Below are positions 33,876 to 60,957 of a DNA stretch of 64,000 nt, piece after piece. Positions within the stretch are counted from its first letter, which is position 1; each line of letters starts with the position of its first letter. The notes beneath the pieces were generated by a model that ran no database searches, had not been told where the DNA came from, and was given only the letters and a program-made list of their open reading frames with translations. Both the position numbers and the translations under genes were made by a program. Source of the DNA: Hyphomicrobiales bacterium (lineage in GTDB: Bacteria; Pseudomonadota; Alphaproteobacteria; Rhizobiales; Beijerinckiaceae); the NCBI GenBank assembly GCA_947447895.1, contig CANFLM010000004.1:1-64000 (forward strand), written 5' to 3'.

Positions 33876-35381
33876 ATGACAAACCTGTCTGCCTATGACC
33901 GCCTGCGCCAGCGTTTCGAGCGTATGGCCACCATCCATGAAGCCTCTGCCATGCTCGGTTGGGATGCCTCCGCCATGATGCCCGCAGGCGGCGGCCAGGC
34001 ACGCGGCGACCAGCTGGCGGTTCTGGCCAGCCTCGCGCATGGATTGCTGATAGAGCCCGCTGTCGCGGATGATCTCGAGGAGGCCGAACACCACAGGCCC
34101 CAGCTCGATCACTGGCAGGGCACCAATCTGAAACTGATGCGGCAGGCGCATATCCGCGCCGTCGCCCTGCCGCCCGATCTGGTGGAAGCGCAGGCGCGTG
34201 CCAATTCCGCATGCGAGAAAATCTGGCGGCAGGCCCGCCAGACCAGTGATTTCGCGCTGGTGCGTCCTGCCTTGCAAGAGGTCGTCAAGCTGGTGCGCGA
34301 GCAGGCGCAAGCGCTCGGCGAGGCCCTGTCGCTCAAACCCCATGACGCATTGATGGACGGCTTCCAGCCCGGCATCTATGCCGCCGATGTCGCTCCGGTC
34401 TTTGCTGCCTATAAAGTCTATCTCAAGGACGCCCTCCCGCGCGCCGAAGCCTTGCAGGCGCAACGTCCGGCACCGGTCATGCCGGAGGGTCCGTTTCCCA
34501 CCGCCTTGCAGGAAACGCTCTGCCGCAGCCTGTCGCAGCGCGCCGGCCTCGAGGCCGATCATTCGCGGCTTGACCGCTCGACCCATCCGTTTTGTGGCGG
34601 CATCCCCACCGATGTCCGCATCACCACCCGTTATGACGAGAGCAATTTCGCCAAAAGCCTGCTGGGTGTGATGCACGAAACCGGGCACGCTTTGTATGAA
34701 CGCGGTCTGCCGACCGCCTATGCCCGTCAGCCTGTCGGCTATGCCGCAGGCATGGCCGCGCATGAAAGCCAATCGCTGATCGTCGAAATGCAGGCCTGCC
34801 GCTCCGATGCCTATCTCGGCTGGCTGGGGCAGGAATTGCACGCCACCTTCAAAGGCGATGCGGCCCCCTACGAGGCTGCCAATCTGGGCCGGCTGTGGCG
34901 CAGGATCGAACGCGGCTTCATCCGCGTCGATGCGGATGAAATGACCTATCCCGCCCATATCATCATGCGGTTCGAGCTGGAACAGGCTTTGATCGGCGGC
35001 GATCTGCAAGTGGCCGACCTGCCTGCGGCCTGGAATGACGCCTTGCACGGTCTGCTCGGCATCACTCCGCCGGACGATGCCCATGGCGTGTTGCAGGACA
35101 TCCACTGGTATGACGGGCTGTTCGGCTATTTCCCGAGCTACACGCTCGGCGCGATGGCCGCCGCCCAGTTGATGAGCGCCGCCCGCCTACAGGTGGCAGG
35201 TCTGGATGCCGCGCTTGGCCAAGGCGATTTCGGCCCGCTGCTGGGCTGGCTACGCCGGAATGTCCACAGCCAGGGCAGCCTGATGGGCTTCAACGACCTG
35301 ATGAGGCAGGCCACAGGCAAGCCGCTCGATCCCGCCGATTTCGAAACCCATCTGAACGCCCGCTATCTGGCCGATGCCTAA
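33876..35381 (+). CDS. Metallocarboxypeptidase, peptidase family M32
   Basis: About 501 residues from MTNLSAYDRL at 33876; the frame also has an ATG at 33849, but MPPLPSEPL does not look conserved. The zinc site is LLGVMHETGHALYERG (HExxH-type HETGH, about residue 267) with the third ligand in AAHESQSLIVE (about 297). The N-terminal ASAMLGWDASAMMP and C-terminal FFPSY-like YFPSYTLGAMAAAQL are family landmarks. M32 enzymes remove C-terminal residues from peptides in the cytosol. Monocistronic. Confidence 0.94.
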   Translation: MTNLSAYDRLRQRFERMATIHEASAMLGWDASAMMPAGGGQARGDQLAVLASLAHGLLIEPAVADDLEEAEHHRPQLDHWQGTNLKLMRQAHIRAVALPPDLVEAQARANSACEKIWRQARQTSDFALVRPALQEVVKLVREQAQALGEALSLKPHDALMDGFQPGIYAADVAPVFAAYKVYLKDALPRAEALQAQRPAPVMPEGPFPTALQETLCRSLSQRAGLEADHSRLDRSTHPFCGGIPTDVRITTRYDESNFAKSLLGVMHETGHALYERGLPTAYARQPVGYAAGMAAHESQSLIVEMQACRSDAYLGWLGQELHATFKGDAAPYEAANLGRLWRRIERGFIRVDADEMTYPAHIIMRFELEQALIGGDLQVADLPAAWNDALHGLLGITPPDDAHGVLQDIHWYDGLFGYFPSYTLGAMAAAQLMSAARLQVAGLDAALGQGDFGPLLGWLRRNVHSQGSLMGFNDLMRQATGKPLDPADFETHLNARYLADA

Positions 35382-35701
35382 GCGGGCGGCTCGTTGATTT
35401 TGTCGGGCCGCATGATCTCGATCTCGATAAAGGCAATCGGGTGGTCCGAGCCGTTTTTGACATCGTGCTGGACATTGGCGAGACGGCGGTAGGATTGGCC
35501 CGCTTTGAGGGGCACATCGGTCACCGTCTTGCCGTCATGGATCGACAGGATGCCGTCCACCAGCATGACCACCACATAGGGCCAGGCATGGGTGTGCCAG
35601 CCCGTCACGGCACCCGGCTCGAAATCCCAGCGGGTGATGCGCATGCAGCCATCATCCAGCTGCTCGGTCGGCTTTGCCGGAATATCACAAACAAAAGCCA
35701 T
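35378..35701 (-). CDS. Small cupin-domain protein
   Basis: From MAFVCDIP at 35701 the protein has 107 residues with one cupin barrel. WDFEPGAVTGWHTHAWPYVVV (about 25-45) carries the two His of motif 1, and QSYRRLANVQHDVKNGSD (about 69-86) carries the motif 2 His. It is the last gene of the long minus-strand catabolic regulon, following a NIPSNAP protein by 11 bases. Such small cupins act as isomerases or dioxygenase-like enzymes, or bind pathway metabolites. Confidence 0.82.
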   Translation of the reverse strand: MAFVCDIPAKPTEQLDDGCMRITRWDFEPGAVTGWHTHAWPYVVVMLVDGILSIHDGKTVTDVPLKAGQSYRRLANVQHDVKNGSDHPIAFIEIEIMRPDKINEPPA

Positions 35702-35712
35702 GGCTTGTCTCC

Positions 35713-36030
35713 TTATTGCAGGGGCGAGAAGAAAGCGGGTTTCAGGATCTTGTTGTCCATCTTTTCGATATAGTCGCGCGTTTTGGGGATGAACGCCAGC
35801 CATTCGGGATCGGCATAAAGCGCGGTGCGCCGCGCCTCGCGGTCGGCATAATCCTCGTAGCGCCACATCATCACGATCTCGTTCAAGCCGCCGATATCGG
35901 TATAGAACCAGCCGATCGAGGGGCCGAGATAGCGGCAATGGATCTCGAACGCCTCGGTGTGGTAGAAGCGCAGATAATCCTGCACCATGCCGACTTTGAT
36001 CCGGTAGGTGCGCTGTTCGATGATGGCCAT
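35713..36030 (-). CDS. NIPSNAP-family protein
   Basis: The 105-residue product starts at MAIIEQRTYRIKVG (36030). The ferredoxin-like pattern IEQRTYRIKVGMVQDYLRFY then GWFYTDIGGLNEIVMMWRYED is typical of NIPSNAP domain proteins, which form dimeric alpha-beta barrels. Bacterial members often sit in catabolic operons of unknown detail. It lies between the hydantoinase-like gene (19 bases upstream) and the cupin gene, all co-directional. Confidence 0.85.
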   Translation of the reverse strand: MAIIEQRTYRIKVGMVQDYLRFYHTEAFEIHCRYLGPSIGWFYTDIGGLNEIVMMWRYEDYADREARRTALYADPEWLAFIPKTRDYIEKMDNKILKPAFFSPLQ

Positions 36031-36049
36031 CACGGCCTCCTTTTGCAGG

Positions 36050-37462
36050 TTAGACGGGCAAGCGGTGCAGATAGCGGCCGCCGCCGATGGCATGGTCATC
36101 AAGCTGCAAATCCCGCATGATCATGCGACCGCGCAGCACGGTATGAATGACCCGACCTGTGAGTGTCTGACCCTCATAGATCGAATAGCCGGCAGAGCTT
36201 TTGAGATGCGACCGCTCAAGAACCCACCTGGCCTTGGGATCGATGATGGCGAAGTCGGCATCCATACCCACGGCAATCCGGCCCTTGCGGTCCGACAGGC
36301 CGAAGGCTTTTGCCACATTGGTTGAGGTCAGTTGCGCGATGCGCTCGAGCGGCAGGCCGCGCTTGGCATGCCCCTCGCTCAACATCACCGGCAACAGGGT
36401 CTCAAGCCCCGGACAGCCCGGCGAGGCATCCCAGACCGAAGCCGATTTGGAAGCAATGTCGCGATGGACATGGTCGGTGCCGATGGTATCGACATGGCCA
36501 TCGGCAATCGCCTGCCACAGGGCTTCGCGGTCCTTGGCCGTGCGCAGGGGCGGGTTGATCTTGCCCACCACGCCACCCGACCATGTCTCGTCATGGGTCA
36601 GATAATGCGGGCAGGTCTCAATCGTCACGCGACTGCCTGCCCGGCGATGCATCAATGCAGCCTCGAGTGCGGCTTGGGACGAGGTATGGACGATATAGAC
36701 GGGCGCGCCCGTGACCTTGCCGAGATAGGCGGCGCGCTGCACCGCATCCGCTTCGACGAAATCGGGCCGCGAGGCATTCCACGTCGCAAGTCCGCCTGTG
36801 CCCTCGGGATCGCTCTGCTTCAACCGCTCGCGCAACACCCAGGCGATTTCGATGGTTTCGGGATGGGGACACACCACACCGCCATGGGCGGCGGCCGCCT
36901 CGCAGAGCCGGAACAGATAGCCGTCATCAATATCGGGCAGGCCCAGACGCGACCCTTCGCCGCCACGGTTGTTCATGAAAATCTTGAACGAGGTCACGCC
37001 ATGGTCGCGGGCATAGAGCGGCACACCGGCCAGTTGCGCCTCGGTCGAGATGATGAAGTGATAGCCGAAATCGATCCGGCTTCCGGCCTGCGTGACCGCA
37101 CAAACCTCGTCGAACTGCGTCTCGAACGGTTCGGTGCTCATCAGATAGGGGATGAAAGTTGTGATCCCGCCCACTGCGGCGGCCGCGGATTCGGTGGCCG
37201 CATCTGCGGGCACGCGCGGGCGGGCGATGTCCTTGCCATGGCCGAGATGCAGGTGTGGATCGATCACGCCCGGCATGATGACCAGACCCGACAGGTCGAT
37301 CTCCTCGACGCGCGCGCCTGCCGGATTGTGCCGTGGGGCGTCATAGCGGCCCAGGCCGATAATCTTGCCTCCATGCACGATCACATCACAGGACACCAAA
37401 CCCTGTTCGGCAGTGACCACCTGCGCGTTGCTGTAACGTTGGACTGTTGGCTGGTCGGACAT
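36050..37462 (-). CDS. Hydantoinase/dihydropyrimidinase-like cyclic amidohydrolase
   Basis: This 470-residue protein shows all the metal ligands of the dihydroorotase/hydantoinase group: H-x-H in DPHLHLGH (about H70, H72), the Lys expected to be carbamylated in TSFKIFMNN (about K160), His in VVCPHPE (about H200) and IVHTSS (about H259), and Asp in IGTDHVHRD (about D330). These enzymes open cyclic amides, imides or ureides. Together with an isochorismatase-fold amidase in the same regulon this points to an N-containing ring substrate. Exact specificity (hydantoin, allantoin, dihydropyrimidine or other) is not readable. Confidence 0.88.
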   Translation of the reverse strand: MSDQPTVQRYSNAQVVTAEQGLVSCDVIVHGGKIIGLGRYDAPRHNPAGARVEEIDLSGLVIMPGVIDPHLHLGHGKDIARPRVPADAATESAAAAVGGITTFIPYLMSTEPFETQFDEVCAVTQAGSRIDFGYHFIISTEAQLAGVPLYARDHGVTSFKIFMNNRGGEGSRLGLPDIDDGYLFRLCEAAAAHGGVVCPHPETIEIAWVLRERLKQSDPEGTGGLATWNASRPDFVEADAVQRAAYLGKVTGAPVYIVHTSSQAALEAALMHRRAGSRVTIETCPHYLTHDETWSGGVVGKINPPLRTAKDREALWQAIADGHVDTIGTDHVHRDIASKSASVWDASPGCPGLETLLPVMLSEGHAKRGLPLERIAQLTSTNVAKAFGLSDRKGRIAVGMDADFAIIDPKARWVLERSHLKSSAGYSIYEGQTLTGRVIHTVLRGRMIMRDLQLDDHAIGGGRYLHRLPV

Positions 37463-37481
37463 GGCACACCGTATTTGGAGG

Positions 37482-38876
37482 TCAGGGGGTCAGGCGGGGG
37501 GACATCAGGCTATTGGCCAACAGGTCAAAATCGGCATGATCTTCGATATGCAGCCAAAAGCCGACGATCTGGTCGATCATGGCAGGCGACAGGCTGCGGG
37601 CGGCATTGGCCTCGAATTTCTCGAGCACCTTTTGCGCAGTGACCGGACGGCTGGCATTCCCAAGCACATCGTCCTTGCTGATACCGAGCACGCGGCCATC
37701 CCTGAGCACGCATTGCACATCCGCCTCGAAGTGGCGCGGAAAGCGGTTGGGCCGCAGCGGCTCCCACGTGGTGCGGGCCGCCAGATCCAGCACCGGCTGG
37801 CTCGGGCTATGGGTAAAAGTATCGAGATCGACCTTGCCCTCGACAAAGCGGGCCGCCGTGATCACCGGCAGGCTCCAGCGGATCGCATGGCCGGTGGCGG
37901 GCCGCTGTTTGCTGTCCCATGGCTCGCAGACAATGGGAGCTGCCCCTTCGGCGATTTTGACATGGATCCGTTCGATCTGGGCGGCATCGCCGATCTGTTC
38001 GGCCAGCTCTCCGGCCGCCTCGACGAAAGAATGCAGATAATGGCAACTTGGCACCAGTTTGAAGGCAACATCGCGCAGATGCCATGTCGTGCCGAAATCT
38101 GCCAGATGCCCCTGCAACCGTGCCGCGGCATCCGGATCACGCGCAAAGGCCATGAACAGGCCGCGCTGGCCTTCCAGACTGGTCTGCGGACCCTGCAAAC
38201 CGGCCATGGCCAGACGGGCAGCGACCACGCCCGCATGGGCCGACCAGCCCGGATGCATGGATTTGACCGAGGAGCCATTGCTGAGAAATTCGAACACGCC
38301 GGATGACTGGCTGAGCGCAATGCCCATCGCATCGACGCACTGGTCCTCGTCCGCCCCCATCAGATCACAGGCCATCAAGGCGGTGACCAGCGTGCCTGCC
38401 ACCGAAGTGATCTGGAAGCCGTGGCGCTGGAACCCGCCTTGTGCGGCCAGACCGATCCGGATCAGACATTCATAACCCTTGATATAGGTCTCCAGCATCG
38501 CGGCGGGCGAAGCCCCGACCGCTTGCGCCACAGCCATCGCGGCAGGCAGCAAGACCGCACTGCCATGCACAATGGATTCGGTATGGGTGTCGTCATATTC
38601 CAGAGAATGGATCAGCCCGCCATTGACCAGCGCGGCATCCGACGCATCCAGTCCTTTGATCCCGTTGAGGGTCGAGACCGGACCTGGGGCAGCCTGCCGC
38701 GTGTATCGGGCATAGGGCTGGCCCTGTCCCAGCGAGGCTGCGGCAATGCCCACACCCATCGCATCCAGACAATGCAAGGCCGCAAACTGCCTGACATCGT
38801 CGGGAACAAGCGCCCCATCAAGCGCCATCCAGCGGCTGACAAGCTGGCGGGCCAGATGGTGCATGTCCTTGCTCAT
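37482..38876 (-). CDS. MmgE/PrpD-family protein, copy 1
   Basis: This 464-residue member of the 2-methylcitrate dehydratase (PrpD) / itaconate decarboxylase / immune-responsive-gene-1 family has the usual ALHCLDAMGVGIAAASLGQ start and a conserved middle, SLEYDDTHTESIVHGSAVLLPAAMAVAQ (positions about 90-117), where Asp and His line the active site. The SVKSMHPGWSAHAGVVAARLA segment is typical. Family members dehydrate or decarboxylate small tricarboxylic-like acids or epimerise them. Its start overlaps the flavoprotein stop by four bases. Confidence 0.85.
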   Translation of the reverse strand: MSKDMHHLARQLVSRWMALDGALVPDDVRQFAALHCLDAMGVGIAAASLGQGQPYARYTRQAAPGPVSTLNGIKGLDASDAALVNGGLIHSLEYDDTHTESIVHGSAVLLPAAMAVAQAVGASPAAMLETYIKGYECLIRIGLAAQGGFQRHGFQITSVAGTLVTALMACDLMGADEDQCVDAMGIALSQSSGVFEFLSNGSSVKSMHPGWSAHAGVVAARLAMAGLQGPQTSLEGQRGLFMAFARDPDAAARLQGHLADFGTTWHLRDVAFKLVPSCHYLHSFVEAAGELAEQIGDAAQIERIHVKIAEGAAPIVCEPWDSKQRPATGHAIRWSLPVITAARFVEGKVDLDTFTHSPSQPVLDLAARTTWEPLRPNRFPRHFEADVQCVLRDGRVLGISKDDVLGNASRPVTAQKVLEKFEANAARSLSPAMIDQIVGFWLHIEDHADFDLLANSLMSPRLTP

Positions 38877-40243
38877 GCTTTGGCCTGTGCAATCTCGTGG
38901 GCCGCCGCCCGCCCTGCCAGCCGGCCCAGCGCAATCGCCGTCAACAGGCCGTTGCCGGACGCATAGCCCAAGGCTCCCGCCTTGCCGGAAATGCCTGCGG
39001 CGGCACCACCGCCGGCAAACAGATTCGGAATGGCATGGCCCTGCTGATCGAGCACCCGCGCATCGCCATCCACTTTGAGACCGCCCTGGGTATGGAACAG
39101 TCCGGGCACGACACGGCAGATGTAATAGGGCGCCTTGAGCGCAGCCAGACCGAAATTGGTGCGGCCGAATCGGTCGGCATGTTTGCCTTCGGCGGCCTCG
39201 TTATAGGCGGCAATCTCGGCAGTCACAGCCTGCGGATCGAGATCGAAAAAGCCGGCGAGGGTCTGCAGATCGTCAGCCTTTTTCACGCCGCCATAATTGA
39301 CCAGTTCCATGAACTCTTCTTCGAGAGCGGCCACATCGAAAATCGTCTGGTCGAAAATGGCATAGGCAAATTCGCCCTGTTCAAGCACCACACGCGCATA
39401 GCCGGAATAGCCCAGACTTTCGTCCCCGAACCGCTTGCCGTTCTGGCCCACGAGCACGCCACCTTTTTCGATGGTCGTCCACGACAACAGACTGCCATGC
39501 GGATAGGCGACAGCGGCATAGCCCTGATAGGCGCCCATATTGGCCAGAGCAGCCCCGACCTTGCGCCCCCATTTGACCGCATCGCCGTGCGAGCCGCGCG
39601 CGCCGAAATACTGCGCACCGGCAATTTCGGGACAATGCTGTTTGACCAGATCGGGATCGGCGGCAAAACCGTTGACGGCCAGAATGGTCTTTCTGGCCCG
39701 CACATCGGATGTCCCCTCGGTCGATTGGATGCGCGCACCGACAACACCACCGTCTTCGACCAGCAGATCATCCACCCCGTTGCCGACCGCCAGCGGAATA
39801 TCGCGCTTCTCGATGGCTTTGAGGAAATCGTCGACCAGATCCAGTCCGCGCCGCGACACCGGCGCATGCAGACGCTGGATCGAATGGCCGATATGTTTGT
39901 AGGCGGTGATCAGCACCATGCGGGCTTCCACCGTATCGATCAGCCATTCCACCGTTTCGGCCGACACCTCTGCCATGCGTTTGACCAAAGCCAGATCGTC
40001 GGTTTCCTTGGCGATCCCCATCAGGTCACGCACCATGGTGGCGGGATCATCGACAATGCCGGCCTCGCGCTGGAACCGCGAATTGGCAGCCGGCACCGAT
40101 CCGGTCGACAGCGACGAATTGCCACCCGGACGGTCGAGCTTTTCCACGATGGCGACAGAGGCCCCCTCGTCATGCGCCGCAATGGCGGCTGCCAAGCCAC
40201 AGGCTCCCGCTCCGATCACCAGCACATCGACATCAAAAGCCAT
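38873..40243 (-). CDS. FAD-dependent oxidoreductase, fumarate reductase/KstD-like
   Basis: This 456-residue flavoprotein starts with VLVIGAGACGLAAAIAAHDE (G-x-G-x2-G, about residues 6-25) and ends with a FAD-binding NLFAGGGAAAGISG and GYASGNGLLTAIALG. The central SRRGLDLVDDFLKAI and HTQGGLKVDG (about 382-391) match the FAD_binding_2 family, whose members reduce or form C=C bonds next to carboxyl or keto groups. It lies between two MmgE/PrpD genes in one operon, so dehydration and redox of an unsaturated acid are probably linked. Confidence 0.87.
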   Translation of the reverse strand: MAFDVDVLVIGAGACGLAAAIAAHDEGASVAIVEKLDRPGGNSSLSTGSVPAANSRFQREAGIVDDPATMVRDLMGIAKETDDLALVKRMAEVSAETVEWLIDTVEARMVLITAYKHIGHSIQRLHAPVSRRGLDLVDDFLKAIEKRDIPLAVGNGVDDLLVEDGGVVGARIQSTEGTSDVRARKTILAVNGFAADPDLVKQHCPEIAGAQYFGARGSHGDAVKWGRKVGAALANMGAYQGYAAVAYPHGSLLSWTTIEKGGVLVGQNGKRFGDESLGYSGYARVVLEQGEFAYAIFDQTIFDVAALEEEFMELVNYGGVKKADDLQTLAGFFDLDPQAVTAEIAAYNEAAEGKHADRFGRTNFGLAALKAPYYICRVVPGLFHTQGGLKVDGDARVLDQQGHAIPNLFAGGGAAAGISGKAGALGYASGNGLLTAIALGRLAGRAAAHEIAQAKA

Positions 40244-40244
40244 A

Positions 40245-41672
40245 TCACACCTTTACCGATACAGAGGAAGCAGTCATCCGCCCGACACAGTCGCGCAATG
40301 ACAGCAGGTCGACACCCTGCTGGCGATGCAGCAAAGCCGTCAGCACAGGCGCCATCGCGGGGAACAGGCTTGCGGTATTGTCGCCGAGCTTGCCAAGCAA
40401 TGTTGCCTCGTCGAACGGCTGGTCAGCCCCGCCGCGCGCATTGATTTTTTCCGCTGTATGGCGAGAGCCATCCGCCATGACCCATGTCACTCGGCTGGGC
40501 CGGTCATTGGGCCACGGAGCCAGCGGCTGGTAGGGCTTCAAGGTCACCTTGTCGCGCAAGGCGGCAATGTCGTCACGCGCCAGTGATGCGGCGGAAAAGG
40601 CTGCCTGCCCGCCGGTCGCCAGCACCGCAACCGCTGCGGCGGCATGCGGCATCGAGAATTGCGCGGACAGCACATTGTCGGGCTTGGTGCCGGTCAAGGT
40701 CAGGCCGCGCGGATGGGTTTCGATCTCGATCGAAGCGATATTGGTGCGTGCCGACGCACCCAGCTGCTCGTGCAGCGACAATGAGGCTTCCAGCATCGCA
40801 TGGGCATATTGGCAGCAGGCAAACACCTTGTGATAGCCGTCATTGATCGCCCAGACCTCACCGAGGCCCGCGCTCAACTGGTCGGGATCGCACGCGGTGT
40901 GGAAACAGGTGCTGAACACATCATAAGGCGTCTCGGCGATGCCGCCGATGCCGTCCTGCGCCCATTCAACCGACAAAGCGGCAATCGACGGGCTGGCAGC
41001 CGTCCACGCATTGCGCACCAGCGCCCCGTCAACCGCATGGCGATAGGGTCCGGCAAAGCTCATGCTGCATGCGCCCGTCAGCGCGCGAAGGAAGGTCGGG
41101 GCATCAAGCCCCTGCACCAATGCACTGGCGACCGTCGCGCCCACCGTGGCAAAAGCCGCATGCGGATGAACTGTCATGGCAGGAAACGGAAAGGCACGGG
41201 CAAAGCGGGCCGTCACCTCGTAGCCCACCGCCAGACAATGCAGCACCTGTTCGCAGGTCAGATCATGCGCTTCGGCCTCGGCCAACAGGGTCGGCAACAC
41301 ATAGGCTCCTGCATGGCAGGGCGCGAGGCGGTAGCCTTCGTCCAATTCGCACCAGGCGGCCGCCATGCCATTGGCAGTGGCCGCCTGCAAACGGTCGATC
41401 TTCAGGGCTTGCGGACCGAAGACGGTGGCCTCGTGGGCGTGTGATTTGGCGTTTGCACGCTGGCGGGTAGCTGTGACTTCCGGCTCTTGCGAGGCGGCCA
41501 CCATCGCACCAAGATCATCGAGCAGGACCAGCGCAGCACGGGCGCGGATGGGATCGGGCAGCGGCGTGGCCGAGGCCGACACGGCCCAATCGCACAAGGC
41601 TTCGAGGGCGAGCGCGGAACGGGCGCGCAGATCGCCGCTGTCGCGGGCCGAAGCGTTTAAAACCATTCCCAC
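40245..41672 (-). CDS. MmgE/PrpD-family protein, copy 2
   Basis: This 475-residue protein belongs to the same family as the product of 37482-38876 but is clearly divergent. RAALVLLDDLGAMVAASQEP (about 44-63), ATANGMAAAWCELDEGYRLAPCHAGAYVLPTLLAEAEA (about 97-134) and CQYAHAMLEASLSL are the landmarks. In place of the HTES-type active-site segment it reads CELDEGYRLAPCHAG, so the two copies probably catalyse different steps or different stereoisomers. The start overlaps livF by 16 bases; the flavoprotein gene starts one base after its stop. Confidence 0.83.
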   Translation of the reverse strand: MGMVLNASARDSGDLRARSALALEALCDWAVSASATPLPDPIRARAALVLLDDLGAMVAASQEPEVTATRQRANAKSHAHEATVFGPQALKIDRLQAATANGMAAAWCELDEGYRLAPCHAGAYVLPTLLAEAEAHDLTCEQVLHCLAVGYEVTARFARAFPFPAMTVHPHAAFATVGATVASALVQGLDAPTFLRALTGACSMSFAGPYRHAVDGALVRNAWTAASPSIAALSVEWAQDGIGGIAETPYDVFSTCFHTACDPDQLSAGLGEVWAINDGYHKVFACCQYAHAMLEASLSLHEQLGASARTNIASIEIETHPRGLTLTGTKPDNVLSAQFSMPHAAAAVAVLATGGQAAFSAASLARDDIAALRDKVTLKPYQPLAPWPNDRPSRVTWVMADGSRHTAEKINARGGADQPFDEATLLGKLGDNTASLFPAMAPVLTALLHRQQGVDLLSLRDCVGRMTASSVSVKV

Positions 41673-48495: not shown

Positions 48496-48503
48496 TGTAT
48501 ACA
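48496..48503. promoter_or_regulatory. GntR/FCD operator candidate TGTATACA (regulon A)
   Basis: The perfect palindrome lies ten bases upstream of the GntR ATG. On the minus strand it reads TTGTATACAGTTAACA. Half-sites of this TTGTATACAA-like form are common for FCD-type GntR regulators. The same eight bases lie before the second GntR gene (60133-60140). Confidence 0.65.
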
Positions 48504-51622: not shown

Positions 51623-51646
51623 GACTACTCCATAATCCTTTAGGGA

Positions 51647-51673
51647 GGCGGGTGCATGATCCATGCACCCGCC
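51647..51673 (-). other. Perfect hairpin between livK and livG (set B)
   Basis: Arms of 12 bases (51647-51658 and 51662-51673) are exact inverses around a three-base loop, starting nine bases after the livK stop. No T-run follows in the minus direction, so this is more likely an mRNA-stabilising or processing hairpin that protects the upstream livK transcript than a terminator. Confidence 0.7.
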
Positions 51674-52938: not shown

Positions 52939-52972
52939 CGTCACTACTCCTGTTGTGGTTTTAGGTGTCGTT

Positions 52973-53923: not shown

Positions 53924-53924
53924 G

Positions 53925-54776
53925 TCAAACAGCCTTTCCAAACAGGCCCATGGGACGGAAAGCGAGGATCGCCGCCATCGGACCGAAAATCACAAAATAA
54001 GCCAATTCGGGGAACATCACCTGCCCCAGCGTATTGAGCAAGCCGACCATCAGCGAGCCGACACCGACGCCGATCAGGCTGCCACGCCCGCCGATAATGA
54101 CAATGGCCAGACTGAACACCAGAATTTCCGAATCGGCCGAAGGATAGAGCGACAGGAACGCCCCACCCATGACACCGCCCATGCCCGCCAGTGCCGAGCC
54201 GAGCAGGAAGGTCATCAGAAACACCCGCTGGATATTGATCCCTGCTGCCTCGACCATTTCGGCATCATCGACACCGGCGCGGATCAGGGCTCCCAGCCGT
54301 GTCTTGTTGATCAGCACCCACAGACCGATAAAAATCAGGATACCCATCAGCAACACGAACAGGCGGTATTTGGGATAGAACGTCCCGAACACGCGGAAGC
54401 CGCCCATCAGTTCCTCTGGGATCGGCACGGTAAAACTGTCACCGCCCCAGATCACCAGTGACATATCATTGAGCACAAAAGCCACGCCGAGGCTCAACAG
54501 CACCTGACGCAATTCGAAGCCGCGCACAAAGCGCAACAGGCCCTCGTTCAAGGCAAAGCCCATCACGGCCACTGCCGCCATGGCGCCCATAATCCCCAGC
54601 GTAAAGCTGCCGAGCTTGGTGGCAATGGTAAAGCCGACATAACCGCCGAACAGATACAGCGCGCCATGCGCCAGATTGACAATCCTGAGCAGCCCGAAGA
54701 TCAGTGTAAACCCACTGGCGACCACAAACAGCAGGGCCGCAAAGGTCAGGCCGTTGAGAAGTTGAAACAGGCTCAT
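53925..54776 (-). CDS. livH: Branched-chain-type ABC permease, LivH type (set B)
   Basis: This 283-residue permease opens LFQLLNGLTFAALLFVVASG and carries LLRIVNLAHGALYLFGGYVG (about 30-49), the INKTRLGALIRAGVDDAEMVEAAGINIQ coupling loop (positions about 163-190) and IIGGRGSLIGVGVGSLMVGLLN. It is the first transporter gene of regulon B, about 43 bases after the deacetylase-like gene's stop; the downstream livM starts one base past its stop. Confidence 0.92.
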   Translation of the reverse strand: MSLFQLLNGLTFAALLFVVASGFTLIFGLLRIVNLAHGALYLFGGYVGFTIATKLGSFTLGIMGAMAAVAVMGFALNEGLLRFVRGFELRQVLLSLGVAFVLNDMSLVIWGGDSFTVPIPEELMGGFRVFGTFYPKYRLFVLLMGILIFIGLWVLINKTRLGALIRAGVDDAEMVEAAGINIQRVFLMTFLLGSALAGMGGVMGGAFLSLYPSADSEILVFSLAIVIIGGRGSLIGVGVGSLMVGLLNTLGQVMFPELAYFVIFGPMAAILAFRPMGLFGKAV

Positions 54777-54819: not shown

Positions 54820-55707
54820 TCAGGCTGTCGCTTCAGGTCCTACGTCCCGATACCAATCATAGATCTGTTCACCCGTACAGAGCTTGACATCCTTGCGGGC
54901 CGAGATCGTCTCGAAAATCTTGCGGAAATATTTCAACCGATGCGGCGCGCCCATAATATAGGGGTGCACGACAAGGGCCATGACACGCGCCGAGTCCTCG
55001 GAATCCTGATAGATCTGCTCGAACTGGTCCATGGCCCGCTCGTAATATTCCGACGCCTTGTGATGCTGGATCAGCATCATCGCCACATCGTTACATTCCT
55101 GCGTGTAGGGAATGTTGACGATCGGCTTGGTCCGGGTTTTGAGCCAGACCGGCTGGTCATCGAGCACCCAGTCGCAGACATAATCATAGCCTTCCTCGAC
55201 CAGCAGATCGGGAGTTTCCCATGTCTCGGTCAAGCCCGGTCCGAGCCAGCCGCGCGGCCGTTTGCCGGTGGCTTTTTCGATCACATCGGCGGTGCGGCGG
55301 ATGTCCTCGCGCTCGTTCTCGACCTTCTGCATGTTGCGCTGGGTAAAGCCGTGACCCATGAACTCCCATTTGCGCTCGAGAGCCGCCTCGACAATCGGCG
55401 GATAGGCCGCCAGCGCCGACCCGTTGATGGCCAGTACACCGGGAATATTGAAATCGTCGAACACTTTCAGCATCCGCCAGAAGCCGACGCGATTGCCGTA
55501 TTCGTGCCAGGCCCAGTTCGGAATATCGGGGCTGGGCGAGCCGCCCGCGGGCGGGGTCAGCACGGTGCGCGGCATCGGCTGGGTGGCATCCCATTCCTCG
55601 ACATTGACGATGACCCACACCGCCATGCGCGCGCCATTGGGCAGTTTCAGCGGCTTGCGGCTGTTGATGGGGGAATAGCTGATCCGTTCTGTCGGCAACA
55701 TGCTCAA
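54820..55707 (-). CDS. Polysaccharide-deacetylase-fold protein, PuuE-like (copy 1)
   Basis: This 295-residue NodB-fold protein has WVIVNVEEWDA where deacetylases have the TFDD metal motif, and FMGHGFTQRNMQ where they have H-x3-H. Later segments are RGWLGPGLTETWETPDLL and MALVVHPYIMGAPHRLKYF. The altered metal motifs and the tail resemble PuuE, the allantoinase recruited from this fold, rather than sugar deacetylases. A role in opening a ureide or cyclic amide is therefore likely. It overlaps the FAH-family gene by four bases. A second copy lies at 56455-57336. Confidence 0.82.
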   Translation of the reverse strand: MSMLPTERISYSPINSRKPLKLPNGARMAVWVIVNVEEWDATQPMPRTVLTPPAGGSPSPDIPNWAWHEYGNRVGFWRMLKVFDDFNIPGVLAINGSALAAYPPIVEAALERKWEFMGHGFTQRNMQKVENEREDIRRTADVIEKATGKRPRGWLGPGLTETWETPDLLVEEGYDYVCDWVLDDQPVWLKTRTKPIVNIPYTQECNDVAMMLIQHHKASEYYERAMDQFEQIYQDSEDSARVMALVVHPYIMGAPHRLKYFRKIFETISARKDVKLCTGEQIYDWYRDVGPEATA

Positions 55708-56426
55708 GCCTCCTGAACCAAATGGGACCCTTTCGGGCCGATATGGATGGTCAACGGCGCCAGTCCTTCGACCCGGGCCACAATCACATCACCCGTATGC
55801 ACGGCAGCGACGCCGGCCGGCGTCCCGGTCATGATCAGATCGCCGGGCATCAAAGTCACCTGCCGCGACAGCTGCACGAGAATTTCCGCACAGTTCCAGA
55901 TCATCTGCTCGAGATCGCCGCGCTGCTTTTCCGCCCCATTGACCTCCAGAGTAATCGCCCCTTTGGCCTGAGGGCCGCATTCTGAGGCCCGGTGCAGCGC
56001 ACCGCAGGGCGCGCAATGGTCAAAGGCCTTGCCGACTTCCCATGGCAGCATAGCGGCACGCGCATCGCGCTGGCGGTCGCGCCGCGTCATATCGAGCCCG
56101 ACCCCGTAACCCCAGACGTGATCGAGCGCCTCGCCCTCCGACAGATCGGCCCCCTGCTTGCCGACCGCAATCACCAGTTCGACCTCGTATTGATAGTCAT
56201 CGGTCATCGGCGGATAGGGGATGGTCGAGCCATCGGTGACAATGCTGTCGCGCGGTTTCTGGAAGAAGAAGGGCGGATCGCGCTCGTCGGCCTCTTTCAT
56301 CTCGCGGATATGCGAGATGTAGTTGCGGCCCACGCAATAGATCCGGCGGACAGGAAATGCCCCTCCACCGGCAACCGGCACGGTTGTCTCGCCCTGCGGC
56401 GGAAGCACCAGCGACGCATCACTCAT
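55704..56426 (-). CDS. Fumarylacetoacetate hydrolase-family protein
   Basis: From MSDASLVLPP at 56426 the protein has 240 residues. The FAH-fold signature is seen in IYCVGRNYISHIREM (about 33-47), FFFQKPRDSIVTDG (about 58-71), VELVIAVGK with a metal-binding Glu, and VWGYGVGLDMTRRDRQ (about 109-124, Asp ligand). The C-terminal LMPGDLIMTGTPAGVAAVH is typical. Family members hydrolyse C-C bonds of acylpyruvates or decarboxylate and hydrate 2-keto-diacids. It sits between the two PuuE-like genes. Confidence 0.9.
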   Translation of the reverse strand: MSDASLVLPPQGETTVPVAGGGAFPVRRIYCVGRNYISHIREMKEADERDPPFFFQKPRDSIVTDGSTIPYPPMTDDYQYEVELVIAVGKQGADLSEGEALDHVWGYGVGLDMTRRDRQRDARAAMLPWEVGKAFDHCAPCGALHRASECGPQAKGAITLEVNGAEKQRGDLEQMIWNCAEILVQLSRQVTLMPGDLIMTGTPAGVAAVHTGDVIVARVEGLAPLTIHIGPKGSHLVQEA

Positions 56427-56454
56427 TGCACAGATCCTGTCTTGACAGTCACAC

Positions 56455-57336
56455 TCATACGCCGGCCTGCCCGCTTGCATACCAGTCGTAAATTTCCTCG
56501 CCATTCATATGCACAACCCCCTCGAAGCGGTTGATATAGGCGTAGACATCCTCGAGATATTTGATGCGGTGCGGCTGGCCCGAAATATAGGGATGGATTG
56601 AAATCGCCATCACGCGGGGCCGTTCGGCTCCCTCGGCATAGAGCCGGTCGAAGGCATCGGTGCAGCGCTGCTGCCAATAGCCCGATTCATGGTGCTGGAC
56701 GATCATGGTCGGAATATCGTTGAGTTCCAGCGTATAGGGCAGCGCCACCAGCGGACCGTTGGTCGTGGTGATGGTGGAGGGGATTTCATCGAACACCCAA
56801 TCCCCGATATATTTCACACCGGCCTCGGTCAGGTAATCGGGGGTTTCGAGCGTCTGGGTCAGGCCCGGTCCGAGCCAGCCGACCGGCCGCTTGTGGGTAA
56901 AAGCCTCGATCACATCCATGGTCTTGTGGATCATCGCCGACTGGTCCTCGACCTTGTGGATCGGCCCCTGCTCATAGGCATGGGCCATGAATTCCCATCC
57001 CTGATCGAGTGCTTCCTGGGCCACCCGCGGATAGTCCTCGCAGACACGCGCATTGATCGACAAAGTCGGCTTGATCCCGAGCTTTTTGTAAAGATCGAAA
57101 AACCGCCAGACGCCGACGCGCATGCCGTATTCATGCCAGGACCAGTTCGCCACATCCGGCAGCAAGGCCTGGCCTGACGGCGCGGGCACCATCTGGCGGG
57201 CCATCGGACGGGCAATATCCCACACTTCCAGATTGACGATCGACCAGACAATGATGCGGCCGTTATTGGGCACCTTCATCGCCGGACGGTCGACGATCGG
57301 GGTAAAGGGGATCCGTTCGCGGGGGATCATGGTCAT
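56455..57336 (-). CDS. Polysaccharide-deacetylase-fold protein, PuuE-like (copy 2)
   Basis: From MTMIPRERIPFTPI at 57336 the protein has 293 residues, paralogous to the product of 54820-55707. It reads WSIVNLEVWDI and FMAHAYEQGPI at the two metal-motif positions, so it departs even further from the canonical D-D and H-x3-H. It shares VGWLGPGLTQTLETPDYL and MAISIHPYISGQPHRIKYL with copy 1. Two such enzymes in one operon may act on different rings or make a heteromer. Start overlaps the aldolase stop by four bases. Confidence 0.82.
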   Translation of the reverse strand: MTMIPRERIPFTPIVDRPAMKVPNNGRIIVWSIVNLEVWDIARPMARQMVPAPSGQALLPDVANWSWHEYGMRVGVWRFFDLYKKLGIKPTLSINARVCEDYPRVAQEALDQGWEFMAHAYEQGPIHKVEDQSAMIHKTMDVIEAFTHKRPVGWLGPGLTQTLETPDYLTEAGVKYIGDWVFDEIPSTITTTNGPLVALPYTLELNDIPTMIVQHHESGYWQQRCTDAFDRLYAEGAERPRVMAISIHPYISGQPHRIKYLEDVYAYINRFEGVVHMNGEEIYDWYASGQAGV

Positions 57337-58010
57337 GCGAGCACTCCTTGCAAAGCCTTGATGCCTACGCCCAAATGCTGGTCGAGCGTGGTGAAAAGAA
57401 ACTGTGCACCGCGCGACTGCCAATCGCGTGCATTCTGCACACCCACAGGCAATCCGTACGGAACCCCGAGACTGTGCAGCCTTTGCGTGACGCGTGCAAC
57501 TTCGGCCACCACACTGGGTTCTGTCGTGTCGCCCAGATGGCCCATCGAATGGGCGAGATCATTCGGGCCGACCAGAATCAGGTCGATGCCGGGCGATCCG
57601 GCAATGGCATCCAGCGCGGCCACACCGCCGACGCTTTCAATCTGGGCAATCAGCAGAAGATCGGCCTCGCGGCCCTTGGTGGCATAGCGGGCTGTCTCGA
57701 CGAGCCGAGCGCAATCGGCCGCCTGTTCGACCTGCGGCAAAACAAGACCGTTGATGCCGCAATCGAAATAGCGCACCCATTCGCTCGGCTCGCGCGACGG
57801 CGTGCGGACCACGGCCGCCAGACCATGCGCCTGTGCGGCGCGCGCCATGGCATGCACACTCTCGATCCCCATCACCGAGCGTTCGGCATCGATGAACACA
57901 ATATCCGCACCATAACGGGCGATCATATCGACCGCCGTCAGATTGGCTCCGCCCGGATTGACGGACAACAGCGCGCCTCCGGCGGCCAATTTGGCTTTGC
58001 AAGGGATCAT
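57333..58010 (-). CDS. HpcH/HpaI-family aldolase
   Basis: From MIPCKAKLAAGGALL at 58010 the protein has 225 residues. The class II aldolase features are FIDAERSVMGIESV (about 36-49), VRTPSREPSEWVRYFDCGINGLVLPQVE (positions about 70-97, catalytic Arg), a metal Glu in IAQIESVGG (about 128) and Asp in VGPNDLAHS (about 151). The length is slightly short for the family. These enzymes cleave 4-hydroxy-2-keto acids to pyruvate and an aldehyde. It overlaps the isochorismatase-fold gene by four bases. Confidence 0.88.
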   Translation of the reverse strand: MIPCKAKLAAGGALLSVNPGGANLTAVDMIARYGADIVFIDAERSVMGIESVHAMARAAQAHGLAAVVRTPSREPSEWVRYFDCGINGLVLPQVEQAADCARLVETARYATKGREADLLLIAQIESVGGVAALDAIAGSPGIDLILVGPNDLAHSMGHLGDTTEPSVVAEVARVTQRLHSLGVPYGLPVGVQNARDWQSRGAQFLFTTLDQHLGVGIKALQGVLA

Positions 58011-58672
58011 GCGGCATCCCCGTTCTGATAGCCGGCCTGCTGCCACTGCCGGGCCGCGCCAACCGCCTCTTTTGCGCTCATGGTGACCGCAAAAGCGGTG
58101 CGCAGGCACAGCAGGGCGGCGTCGTGATGGTCGTGGCTGTCCATCGTATCCACGCAATCCTCGATCACTACCACGCTGTAATCACGCACATTGGCAGCAA
58201 TCGCGGTGGCCAGCACGCAGGAATTGGTGTTGATGCCGGTCATGAAAATCGTGTTGATCCCGAGCGCTTTCAGCCGGAAATCCAGATCGGTGCCGACAAA
58301 GCAATCATAGCGTTTCTTGGTATCGACCACGCTATCGCCGACTTTCAGCAGGCCCGGCATGATGGTTGTGCCGGGCGATCCGTAGAGGTTGTGCCGCATC
58401 ACATTCTTGCGGGTTGCATTGGGATCGTCCGCGCGCATCCGCCAGAACGGGTTCATGCGGATTTCGGCTTCATCGCGATAGCGCGTCACCAGATGGATGA
58501 TCGGGATCGACAAAGCACGGCAGGACTCGAAAAACTGCCGGTTGGCTTCGGTCAGCCGCTCGGCCACCTCCGGCGAGGCCGGCATGGTGGCGACCAGCGG
58601 ATCGAGATGGCCGCGATGGCAATCGATGGCCACCACCGCCACTTTGGGATCATCAACTCCGAAAGCCTGCAT
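58007..58672 (-). CDS. Isochorismatase-fold amidohydrolase, copy 2
   Basis: I start at MQAFGVDD (58672; GAGGA eight bases upstream) giving 221 residues; an ATG ten codons earlier has no ribosome binding site. The triad is Asp in VVAIDCHRGHLD (about D17), Lys in VVDTKKRYDCFVGT (about K119) and Cys in GINTNSCVLATA (about C152). The C-V-L-A-T context differs from the C-V-R-G-T of copy 1 (46226-46918), so the two probably cleave different amides. It is the second gene of regulon B. Confidence 0.87.
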   Translation of the reverse strand: MQAFGVDDPKVAVVAIDCHRGHLDPLVATMPASPEVAERLTEANRQFFESCRALSIPIIHLVTRYRDEAEIRMNPFWRMRADDPNATRKNVMRHNLYGSPGTTIMPGLLKVGDSVVDTKKRYDCFVGTDLDFRLKALGINTIFMTGINTNSCVLATAIAANVRDYSVVVIEDCVDTMDSHDHHDAALLCLRTAFAVTMSAKEAVGAARQWQQAGYQNGDAA

Positions 58673-58706
58673 TATCGCGTCCTCGCATCCATCCGGTTTC
58701 AAGCTG

Positions 58707-59945
58707 TCAGAGAAGCGTATTCCAGCCGGTTTTCAGCAAGGCACGCTGGTCGATGCCGAAGCGGTCGGCCAGCCAGTCGGCCATCACTTCCTGCCCGATC
58801 GTCGGATTGTCGTGCTGGCAATGTTCGGCTCCCGTTTCCTCCGGCGTCAGGAACCGCAGCGTCACATCGACACCGTTTGCCTTGGCCGATTCATAGGCCT
58901 TGGTGGCCGCCGACATGGTCAGCACATCATAACCGCCATGTAGGATGAAATAGGGGCATTTCATATGCTGCAAATGGCCTTCCAGCGTGAAAGGTTTCAT
59001 CTTCTCGTGCGCTTCCGCCATGGTCTGGCAACCCAGCACGAATTTGATGTGCATCGCGAGACCGAATTCGTCGGATTTATCGCCCCACAATTCATGCACA
59101 TCCCAGATCGCGCCATGCGAGATCACCGCCGCCAGACGCGGCTCGTAGCATCCGGCGCGTGCGGCGTAATAGCCGCCGAAGCTCGATCCGCACAGTGCAA
59201 TGCGCGAGGCATCGACATCGGGACGTGTCTCCAGCCAGTCGATCACCTTGCCGATCGGCACCTCGGTGTCGTGACGGCTGTAGACCTTGTGGCGGCGCAG
59301 GGTGCCGCCCTGGCCGGGGCCGTCGATCATCAGCACCGAAATGCCGCGCTGCAGGGCGCCATGCGCCTGCATGAACCACATCTCGTCCTTGATCGAATCC
59401 AGACCGCCCATGCAGATCAGCACCGGCATCTTGTCCCCCGGATAGGGCGCACGCACGAAATAGCCGCAGATCGGCTTGCCATCCTCGTAGGGAATATCGA
59501 CGGCATAACCGGGCGGGTTCAGATGCGACAGGAAACCGAGCGAGCAGGATTCCATCAACTCGAATGTCGGCAGGCGGCGCGGATCATCGGGGAGCAGGAA
59601 AAACTCGGCCTGGCGGTAATAATCGGCCGCACGCAGATAGCAATTCATCGCGGTGCGGATATGACCCGACTTTTCGGCTTCAATGGCACGATGGCGGTTG
59701 GTGTCGCCGATCACTTTCCATTCCTTGTGCCAGCTCTCCTCGTCGCCTGCGATGATGCGCGAAGCCGCCAAGAACACTTCGGAGACCGAACCACCACCTT
59801 CCTGCGTTTCACCGAGACCCCGCCGGAACTGGTAGGCAAACCAAGGACTTTCCGGCCAATGATGCCAGCCATAAGGCTGGTAATGCGCATTCTTGTTGGC
59901 GGTGATCTGTTCGATCGCTGCATCGCCACTGGCTATATCGATCAT
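58707..59945 (-). CDS. Alpha/beta hydrolase with helical N-terminal domain (C-C hydrolase-like)
   Basis: From MIDIASGDAA at 59945 the protein has 412 residues. A helical first half, with HRAIEAEKSGHIRTAMNCYL (about 85-104), precedes the catalytic domain: nucleophile in CGSSFGGYYAARAG (about S255), acid in HGGYDVLT (about D340) and His in EHCQHDN (about 375-378). This build, a long helical lid before the triad, is like 2,6-dihydroxypseudooxynicotine hydrolase and related C-C or ester hydrolases. It is the first gene of regulon B, divergent from the GntR gene at 60283. Confidence 0.83.
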   Translation of the reverse strand: MIDIASGDAAIEQITANKNAHYQPYGWHHWPESPWFAYQFRRGLGETQEGGGSVSEVFLAASRIIAGDEESWHKEWKVIGDTNRHRAIEAEKSGHIRTAMNCYLRAADYYRQAEFFLLPDDPRRLPTFELMESCSLGFLSHLNPPGYAVDIPYEDGKPICGYFVRAPYPGDKMPVLICMGGLDSIKDEMWFMQAHGALQRGISVLMIDGPGQGGTLRRHKVYSRHDTEVPIGKVIDWLETRPDVDASRIALCGSSFGGYYAARAGCYEPRLAAVISHGAIWDVHELWGDKSDEFGLAMHIKFVLGCQTMAEAHEKMKPFTLEGHLQHMKCPYFILHGGYDVLTMSAATKAYESAKANGVDVTLRFLTPEETGAEHCQHDNPTIGQEVMADWLADRFGIDQRALLKTGWNTLL

Positions 59946-60282
59946 CCGGTATCTCCCCTGTCCCAATGTCTCGCACGCGGCCCTCGCGCGGCCTTGTCTT
60001 GTGACAAAGCGAGAGAGGCCTGGTGCCTGCGTTCAAGCCTGATGCGAACCCTTGTTCGGATCCTTGTTTTCAGGCGTGCTCGACTTTAGATGGGGAATGA
60101 TTGAATACATCAACAGATGTGTCAATTAATTTTGTATACATTTTCAAATTGTCCTGCGATATTTTCAATGAAATGTTGTTCATGTTGCATGGTCTGGGCA
60201 TATGCCGGTTAATAGGGCATAGGCTGCATCAGGATCAGGCTATATTGCGCACGAGGATCAATGGAATGAAGGTTGCCTTGTA
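59946..60282. promoter_or_regulatory. Divergent control region of regulon B
   Basis: The roughly 340-base gap between the hydrolase and the GntR gene has no reading frame of note and turns AT-rich around 60090-60190. It contains ACATC-AACA-GATGT (60107-60120) and TGTATACA (60133-60140). Promoters for both the minus-strand catabolic operon and the GntR gene should lie here. No ribosomal or tRNA-like structure is seen. Confidence 0.6.
60133..60140. promoter_or_regulatory. GntR/FCD operator candidate TGTATACA (regulon B)
   Basis: The context TTTTGTATACATTTT is a nearly symmetric palindrome about 143 bases before the GntR start and about 188 bases before the divergent hydrolase. The core is identical to the site near the first GntR gene (48496-48503). 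Confidence 0.6.
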
Positions 60283-60957
60283 ATGATCAGCAATGCCACG
60301 CGCTCATTATCTGTCACCGATCACCTGCGCGAAGCAATCCTGTCGGGCGGCCTGCCCGCCGGCACCAAGCTGCAAGAAGTGCGGTTGAGCGAGGAACTCG
60401 GTGTCTCGCGCACGCCCATCCGCGCCGCGCTGCAATCCCTCTCGGCCGCAGGCCTGCTCGATTACGCACCCAATCGCGGTTATGTTGTCCGCGAATTTCC
60501 CATTTCCGAACTGGTTGACGCCTATGAAATCCGTGGCGCGCTCGAGGGACTTGCTGCCCGCTTCACAGCCGAACGCGGATTGGTGGACAGCCAACGCCAG
60601 ACGATCGAACAGTCCCTTGCCAGGGGTGCCGACATTCTCACGAGTTCGTCGGTCATGAACGATCATGTTCTCGGGATCATCGGAGAAACCAATGCCGGCT
60701 TTCATGACACGATCATGGAGGCCTCGCTGAACCGGTTGTTGAGCCAGATGACACAAATGTCGTTCCAGATCCCGCGTGTGTCCAACCGCAACATCATCGC
60801 CTTCAGTCTCGATGAATTGCGCCAGCGCCACGATGAACACTATCTGATTTACGAGGCACTACTGGCACGCTCGGCAACCAAGGCCGATACGCTGATGCGC
60901 GACCATGTGGCGAGTGTCAAATTTGCTGCCGTCAGAGCCTTGCGCGAAACACGCTAA
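60283..60957 (+). CDS. GntR-family regulator with FCD domain (regulon B)
   Basis: This 224-residue protein has the winged helix VRLSEELGVSRTPIRAALQS with LSAAGLLDYA (about 36-65). An FCD-type helical domain follows, with YEIRGALEGLAARF (about 81-94) and a NAGFHDTIMEAS stretch (about 137-148) holding metal-ligand positions. It is divergent from regulon B and probably controls it. In the same class as the regulator at 47812-48486 but not closely similar in the effector domain, so the effectors may differ. Confidence 0.9.
   Translation: MISNATRSLSVTDHLREAILSGGLPAGTKLQEVRLSEELGVSRTPIRAALQSLSAAGLLDYAPNRGYVVREFPISELVDAYEIRGALEGLAARFTAERGLVDSQRQTIEQSLARGADILTSSSVMNDHVLGIIGETNAGFHDTIMEASLNRLLSQMTQMSFQIPRVSNRNIIAFSLDELRQRHDEHYLIYEALLARSATKADTLMRDHVASVKFAAVRALRETR

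Follow-up and report, generated by a model that had tools for sequence, protein, structure and literature searches.

A conserved catabolic gene module of an uncultured Hyphomicrobiales bacterium and its proposed role in the breakdown of a nitrogen-ring compound

Microbial cyclic imide metabolism employs an imidase and a half-amidase, and its described end is succinate and the tricarboxylic acid (TCA) cycle. In the nicotinate catabolism of Aspergillus nidulans, a cyclic imide is opened by the PuuE-fold cyclic imidase HxnM, and the amide nitrogen is subsequently released by the amide hydrolase HxnN to give a carboxylic acid (PMC9304392). The product of this route is α-hydroxyglutarate, and a PrpD/PrpB-type end is not described in the available part of the source (PMC9304392), which cites the imidase of Pseudomonas putida YZ-26 and assigns HxnM and the P. 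putida enzyme, both cyclic imidases, to the fold group of the PuuE-like proteins. The back end of the 2-methylcitrate cycle consists of a hydratase/dehydratase and a PrpB-type lyase, with aconitase-type and PrpD-type enzymes interchanging between organisms; AcnD together with PrpF replaces PrpD (PMC5690661). The present work deals with a 64,000-nucleotide stretch of DNA from an uncultured Hyphomicrobiales bacterium (contig CANFLM010000004.1, positions 1 to 64,000; the window), in which two catabolic operons, modules A and B, lie side by side between positions 35378 and 60957. Module A would share the imidase and half-amidase logic with cyclic imide metabolism, but a hydratase and a lyase would follow; it would share the hydratase and lyase with the 2-methylcitrate back end, but it is devoid of PrpC and has predicted ring-opening and deamidating enzymes placed in front. 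It is a widely conserved unit and merits a name of its own as a putative, uncharacterised route for a ring or amide compound that would end in the manner of the methylcitrate cycle.

Conservation of module A

Module A has the gene order gntR, PrpB-like lyase, isochorismatase, periplasmic binding protein, livH, livM, livG, livF, MmgE/PrpD1, flavin adenine dinucleotide (FAD) protein, MmgE/PrpD2, hydantoinase, and cupin (Table 1). Scanning of named genomes with the flavoprotein yielded 56 loci, of which L094-L096 were dropped (32-35% identity) and 53 were kept; 35 of the 53 have at least 7 kb on each side and make up the full-flank set. With identity thresholds of at least 55% for the isochorismatase, 35% for the hydantoinase, and 50% for the PrpB-like lyase, these 35 loci contain the isochorismatase in 32 cases, the hydantoinase in 31, both of them in 31, MmgE/PrpD1 in 29, MmgE/PrpD2 in 26, the PrpB-like lyase in 24, the regulator gene gntR in 22, and the LIV importer in 15; the recurrence of isochorismatase and hydantoinase beside the flavoprotein exceeds chance. 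The orthologue clusters extend over Alpha- and Betaproteobacteria, one metagenome-assembled genome (MAG) labelled as Bacillota (L078), and eight Actinomycete loci (L077, L079, L082, L085-L087, L089, L091), the last having a core of gntR, PrpB-like lyase, hydantoinase, isochorismatase, and flavoprotein. The cupin is not widely conserved, with close matches in the genus of the window only and a partial match in L047. Distances of seven A genes correlate pairwise with r values of 0.69-0.96, which none of 999 permutations reaches in any of the 21 pairs; shared ancestry and vertical descent contribute to these correlations.

LIV and TRAP systems accompany the same enzyme set as alternative importers. 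Of the 35 loci, 15 contain a DctM-type TRAP gene, all without the A LIV system, another 15 contain LIV, and no locus has both; the five loci with neither are all from Actinomycetes. These counts were derived from gene clusters, with one representative each of DctM, DctQ, and DctP verified, and the TRAP count is 12 if scored by the clusters of the binding protein or the small subunit. Recurring neighbours were taken from simple gene callers, which also called antisense frames, and representatives alone were scanned. Asparaginase, HyuA/HyuB, and aconitase/LeuC-family genes adjoin some A loci, with LeuC and LeuD genes flanking L062 and aconitase-family genes flanking L048 and L061. In two loci (L048:12605-17018 and L046:14729-18531), HyuA/HyuB genes (caprolactamase-like, under the cut-off), a second PrpB-like gene, and an isochorismatase gene are located next to module A. 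A nitroreductase-methyltransferase gene cluster was called, at the level of cluster membership, beside 14 of the 35 full-flank loci, mostly together with a TRAP transporter; the member at L067:15865-17238 is a fusion protein of the two families according to Pfam.

Enzymes and proposed pathway of module A

The binuclear metal pattern of cyclic amidohydrolases comprises HxH, a carboxylated Lys, His, His, and Asp. The A hydantoinase belongs to this group, with H70, H72, K160, H200, H259, and D330 present in all 44 rows of an alignment of 42 distinct sequences of at least 42% identity. Its scores stay below the equivalog cut-offs for allantoinase (272.5 versus 357.85) and D-hydantoinase (262.5 versus 393.25). 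A dihydropyrimidinase of Pseudomonas aeruginosa is described as hydrolyzing phthalimide (PMC4437985). PuuE-like proteins are encoded near module A in 15 of the 35 loci (at least 25% identity), and two are encoded in module B.

The flavoprotein is nearest to urocanate and fumarate reductases. The proton-donating arginine proposed for these enzymes is Arg411 in UrdA and Arg401/402 in Fcc3, and in UrdA both Arg411 and Arg560 contact the substrate carboxylate (PMC7921117). In an alignment of 62 rows (60 distinct sequences of at least 48% identity to that of the window and at least 85% coverage, rows with stops dropped), the position of Arg411 is occupied by Tyr279 throughout, and Arg560 aligns with Ala424, where alanine is found 55 times, glycine six times, proline once, and arginine never. 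The motif histidine shared with the reductases of this FAD family is retained, His384 of the HT.GGL motif, which we take to be equivalent to His520 of UrdA, being present in all 62 rows. The best fumarate reductase match, 1jrz, has a tyrosine at the position of Tyr279 and is presumably the R402Y mutant. With Tyr279 in every row and no arginine at position 424, membership among the fumarate/urocanate reductases was rejected, as was that of the tricarballylate dehydrogenases TcuA (169.2 bits versus the NF006130 cut-off of 369). Judged from the alignment, the flavoprotein is a separate branch of the fumarate reductase family. Loss of both carboxylate-contacting arginines would imply a substrate without a free carboxylate at this place, such as a closed imide ring.

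For the hydratase step, the most informative loci are L138-L140 (genomes G460, G650, and G468, respectively), which encode flavoproteins of 50-52% identity and an aconitase-A within the cluster, next to the PrpB-like lyase gene; no PrpD match was obtained in the 20 kb fetched from each of the three genomes. The cluster aconitase has 916 amino acids in L138 and 930 in L140, while that of L139 is known from its genomic place, and hydantoinase and isochorismatase genes of about 40% identity lie beside aconitase and lyase in L138 and L139. The cluster copies score 1040-1101 bits to TIGR01341, versus 1351-1367 bits for the housekeeping copies elsewhere in these genomes; G650 has an additional aconitase of 958 bits. 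In each of the five genomes with the PrpD pair that were searched (G000, G001, G004, G014, G016), a single aconitase exceeds the cut-off. The PrpD pair and the cluster-borne aconitase may thus do the same job, much like PrpD and AcnD (with PrpF), and this apparent exchange of hydratases suggests that an unsaturated di- or tricarboxylate is hydrated ahead of a PrpB-type cleavage. Module A was rejected as an operon of the 2-methylcitrate cycle itself, the PrpB-like lyase reaching 296.3 bits versus 354.4 for TIGR02317, the two MmgE/PrpD proteins 43.4 and 27.9 bits versus 950 for NF042438, and no citrate synthase family, as expected for PrpC, occurring among the Pfam hits of the two operons. Residue 237 of the lyase, presumably the position of Arg241 in Escherichia coli PrpB, was discarded as too ambiguous a clue to side-chain charge, since it is glutamine in 27 of 35 rows and arginine in eight, all of them from Actinomycetes.

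The gene set, its synteny, the conserved residues, and the aconitase found where PrpD is missing are observations; every reaction, the reaction order, and the substrate are inferred. The reading put forward, tentatively and with confidence close to but short of even, is that module A degrades a small cyclic imide or a comparable nitrogen ring. Ring opening and deamination would be followed by hydration and cleavage in a back end resembling that of the 2-methylcitrate cycle. The cyclic compound would be imported by the LIV or, elsewhere, the TRAP system, and its ring would be opened by the hydantoinase-type enzyme. From the resulting half-amide, the isochorismatase-fold enzyme would release ammonia, leaving a di- or tricarboxylate. 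The C=C bond of this substituted maleate- or aconitate-type acid would be hydrated by the MmgE/PrpD pair or, in other genomes, by the cluster-borne aconitase, and the 2-hydroxy acid so formed would be cut by the PrpB-like lyase to yield a keto acid together with a smaller acid. The flavoprotein would make or remove that C=C bond, possibly with the ring still closed, as it is devoid of the arginines by which fumarate and urocanate reductases hold the carboxylate.

Several findings weigh against this pathway. None of the operon enzymes scores over the cut-off of any NCBIfam family shown, so that no reaction is fixed by homology, and the Pfam scan of both operons gave no hit to an oxygenase or molybdenum hydroxylase family. 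Three loci (L061, L075, L080) are without the A-type isochorismatase and hydantoinase, L093 is without the hydantoinase, and L140 has no match for either gene beside its aconitase. The hydantoinases of 15 loci, mostly from Betaproteobacteria, are less than 42% identical and lie outside the residue count given above. The eight Actinomycete loci are without MmgE/PrpD at the thresholds used; there, either another enzyme would accomplish the hydration or the pathway would include no such step. At the gene-cluster level, an aconitase-family gene was called near module A in one of them, L082.

A further adverse point, and the main argument for a ureide as substrate, is that the A isochorismatase is nearest to N-carbamoylsarcosine amidohydrolases, a relationship more in keeping with a ureide than with the half-amide of an imide. 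In a ureide/hydantoin route, the hydantoinase would open a 5-substituted hydantoin or a dihydropyrimidine to an N-carbamoyl acid, from which the isochorismatase would remove the carbamoyl group, and flavoprotein, PrpD, and PrpB would degrade the resulting acid. The relationship of the A amidohydrolase to allantoinases and hydantoinases is in line with such a route. An ordinary amino acid product, however, would need no PrpD/aconitase plus PrpB back end, and the asparaginase and HyuA/HyuB genes beside some A loci likewise speak against a ureide, which we regard as unlikely.

Improbable, too, is that module A represents the glutarimide/tricarboxylate end of pyridine-carboxylate breakdown. In the citrazinate pathway, for example, a citrazinate-like compound passes through tricarballylate, aconitate, and isocitrate to glyoxylate and succinate. 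The aconitase-A paralogue in the cluster of three genomes would suit such an end, as would the action of the PDB relatives of PrpD on tricarboxylates and the genes for an FAD_binding_3 monooxygenase, a RidA protein, and an arylmalonate decarboxylase family member beside the L138 cluster. With these genes (L138:510-2869 and L138:5104-7854), the flanks of the A variant of G460 hint at an oxidative entry step. The score of the flavoprotein (169 bits versus 369 for TcuA) argues against this end, as does the absence of molybdenum hydroxylase and ring reductase families among the Pfam hits of the operons.

It is speculative and highly improbable that the cyclic imide would be hematinic acid or another substituted maleimide remaining from a tetrapyrrole (heme, bilins, chlorophyll). 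Ring opening and deamidation would give a 2-methyl-cis-aconitate homologue, and hydration and PrpB-type cleavage would lead to pyruvate and glutarate. The idea was prompted by how well this acid would suit enzymes of the PrpD/AcnD and PrpB families and by the aquatic origin that many host names suggest.

Separability and control of modules A and B

Although adjacent, the catabolic modules A and B can be separated, each has a patchy distribution, and they probably do not form one pathway. When 298 genomes of the family were searched with the A flavoprotein (E ≤ 1e-120) and the B PuuE2 protein (E ≤ 1e-110), the former was found in 17 and the latter in nine. Both occur together in three (G000, G001, G003), as compared with about 0.5 expected by chance; all three belong to one genus and therefore reflect one lineage. 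Outside this genus, the two modules never co-occur in the sample. Module A stands alone in 14 genomes, three of which have the flavoprotein variants of 50-52% identity, and module B in six; the completeness of some of these genomes is below 90% (79-85% for G002, G492, and G532 with A alone, 77% for G577 with B alone). In a sample of 385 genomes of the class, the A flavoprotein was found in two, the window included, and PuuE2, at a laxer E ≤ 1e-95, in eight, all except the window at 48-54% identity. Among the B-only genomes, the B cluster is present in G480, G509, and G702 and, as a contig fragment, in G577, while G011 and G456 have PuuE2 and no other B match on the stretch fetched. The absence of B genes near module A in all 35 named loci is not usable as evidence, as the flanks were 10 kb whereas the B FAH gene lies 15 kb from the flavoprotein gene in the window, and as L042, from G001 where B adjoins A, is among the 35.

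The original prediction had read the two halves as linked routes for one compound. Its description of both as catabolic operons of amide- or ring-hydrolyzing and keto-acid-forming families, with a separate importer and GntR regulator for each half, stands, but the linkage is weakened by the separation of the modules in other genomes and is set back as the leading reading. What speaks for one linked pathway is the contiguity of A and B in G000, in G001, and, up to the contig end, in G003, together with the rare palindrome TGTATACA in both control regions. Given joint occurrence in three of 298 family genomes, all of a single genus, however, such a pathway is distinctly improbable.

Noticed first in alignments and counted afterwards, this 8-bp palindrome is present in three copies in the window, where 0.12 would be expected, and in six copies in the 2.54-Mb genome (two for the reversed-letter control), two of the six being those at A (48496) and B (60133). 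Loci L041-L143 (1.68 Mb) contain ten copies, four at A gntR (three from this genus, one from L078), two between gntR and hydrolase gene of the B modules of the genus, two before the B hydrolase gene and one before the B FAH gene of other genera, and one without a mapped gene. An A gntR is recognised in 27 named loci, and the exact sequence is confined to two of these, L042 and L044, both from this genus and one of them without B, which weighs against a general role at A and against a linked pathway. Motifs of this kind are usual for FCD-GntR proteins, so that related GntR/FCD control of A and B is possible, and the motif may show similar rather than shared control. No inverted repeats with arms of 10 bp were found in the control regions. 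The other four sites in the genome (G000:C30:14199, G000:C1:38132, G000:C1:89879, and window position 28559) lie in or by genes without an evident catabolic link.

Module B has the order divergent gntR, alpha/beta hydrolase, isochorismatase, HpcH, PuuE1, FAH, PuuE2, livH, livM, periplasmic binding protein, livG, and livF. Its hydrolase, isochorismatase, FAH, PuuE, and LIV genes probably serve the degradation of another ring or diketone amide, with less certainty about the chemistry than for module A. The PuuE-like proteins (137.1 and 98.6 bits versus 424.6 for TIGR03212) fall outside the PuuE allantoinases, and all ten LIV proteins of the window score below the UrtA-E cut-offs of the urea transporter Urt. 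The B alpha/beta hydrolase is a distant relative of 2,6-dihydroxypseudooxynicotine hydrolase of nicotine catabolism (2jbw, 1.9e-24), but its top solved match is SMU_737, and no other nicotine pathway gene was recognised in the operons. Three complete B clusters outside the genus (L128, L129, L131) are without HpcH and amidase genes; in L128 and L129, the cluster ends with genes for an aldehyde dehydrogenase and an Amidohydro_2 protein.

Gene content of the region

Twenty-six genes were counted in the region, 25 of them on the minus strand and the sole exception being the B gntR. Some of the apparent overlaps in the minus-strand run may be start-codon artefacts, as mechanically assigned starts of open reading frames (ORFs) can be too early, for example that of A gntR. 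All enzyme, regulator, and transporter families named in the original prediction are present above their Pfam cut-offs. Its four pairs (FCD-GntR regulators, isochorismatases, PuuE-like proteins of the polysaccharide deacetylase fold, MmgE/PrpD proteins) were recovered, as were the single dihydropyrimidinase/allantoinase-type amidohydrolase, amidase, FAH, HpcH, and PrpB-like proteins and the two complete LIV systems of different gene order; the C-C hydrolase-like protein corresponds to the FrsA-like hydrolase. The flavocytochrome-c/urocanate-reductase-like protein and the cupin of module A are additions to that list.

Table 1. Features of modules A and B in the window
Feature	Position	Strand	Remarks
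A cupin, last gene	35378..35938	-	Pfam Cupin_2
A dihydropyrimidinase/allantoinase-type cyclic amidohydrolase; predicted ring opening	36050..37462	-	under NCBIfam equivalog cut-offs shown; metal residues kept
A MmgE/PrpD protein 2; predicted hydratase	37482..38876	-	cis-aconitate decarboxylase/IDS-epimerase relatives
A flavocytochrome-c-like FAD oxidoreductase	38873..40243	-	Tyr279 replaces catalytic Arg
A MmgE/PrpD protein 1; predicted hydratase	40245..41672	-	
A LivF-type ATPase	41657..42340	-	
A LivG-type ATPase	42344..43159	-	
A LivM-type permease	43099..44010	-	
A LivH-type permease	44014..44952	-	
A periplasmic binding protein	45015..46166	-	Peripla_BP_6
A isochorismatase-fold amidohydrolase	46226..46918	-	nearest solved relatives N-carbamoylsarcosine amidohydrolases
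A PrpB/petal-death-protein-like C-C lyase	46946..47809	-	Cys119-Gly-His and Arg154 in 35/35 rows
A GntR/FCD regulator	47812..48486	-	probable start ATG 48486
A TGTATACA palindrome, putative operator	48496..48503		9 bp before probable gntR start
Amidase, AtzE-like, between B and A	48588..49964	-	
B LivF-type ATPase	50167..50985	-	
B LivG-type ATPase	50867..51664	-	
B periplasmic binding protein, twin-arginine (TAT)-type signal	51682..53037	-	over NCBIfam, just under Pfam cut-off
B LivM-type permease	52973..53941	-	
B LivH-type permease	53925..54776	-	
B PuuE-like protein 2; predicted imide/amide ring opening	54820..55707	-	also matches 3qbu
B FAH-family hydrolase	55704..56504	-	near a putative fumarylpyruvate hydrolase
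B PuuE-like protein 1	56455..57423	-	
B HpcH/HpaI aldolase	57333..58157	-	with B only in genus of the window
B isochorismatase-fold amidohydrolase	58007..58702	-	distant biuret hydrolase relative, under cut-off
B FrsA-like alpha/beta hydrolase	58707..59966	-	solved relatives acylaminoacyl peptidase SMU_737 and 2,6-dihydroxypseudooxynicotine hydrolase
B TGTATACA palindrome, putative operator	60133..60140		between divergent gntR and hydrolase; identical in the three aligned genomes of the genus
B GntR/FCD regulator	60283..60957	+	

The host belongs to an uncultured genus, and its genome is contained in 104 contigs. Close named relatives of its flavoprotein (83-95% identity) are encoded by the Hyphomicrobiales/Rhizobiales MAGs ErkenSummer_bin-1383, Jr-7aug17-29, Jr-7aug17-229, and AM1_bin-0863, whose names suggest a lake origin. 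Next to the B regulator gene, positions 60969-61724 of the window encode a protein that is weakly similar to ArnA-type formyltransferases and gave no match in Pfam; it was matched beside module B in G003 (79%) and not in the G001 stretch. The GC content is 0.49 at positions 1-4000 and 0.53 at positions 28001-32000 of the window, versus 0.55-0.62 in the other 4-kb blocks; two ORFs scanned in an AT-rich stretch at about 28.4-28.7 kb gave no Pfam match.

As the original prediction had supposed, no described pathway with this exact set was found; searches of an open-access library, covering the gene set, citrazinate, imidases, alkylmalate lyases, and tetrapyrrole maleimides, gave no paper with a title or abstract describing the gene set or citrazinate or maleimide catabolism by such a cluster. 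Apparently, the families are known and their combination is undescribed. The conservation of module A from uncultured Hyphomicrobiales to Streptomyces and Nocardia would mean that a nitrogen compound of wide occurrence is broken down by an unassigned route. The flavoprotein with tyrosine in place of arginine would constitute a testable separate branch of the fumarate reductase family, and substrates would follow for proteins that are annotated as "hydantoinase", "isochorismatase", "MmgE/PrpD", and "flavocytochrome c".

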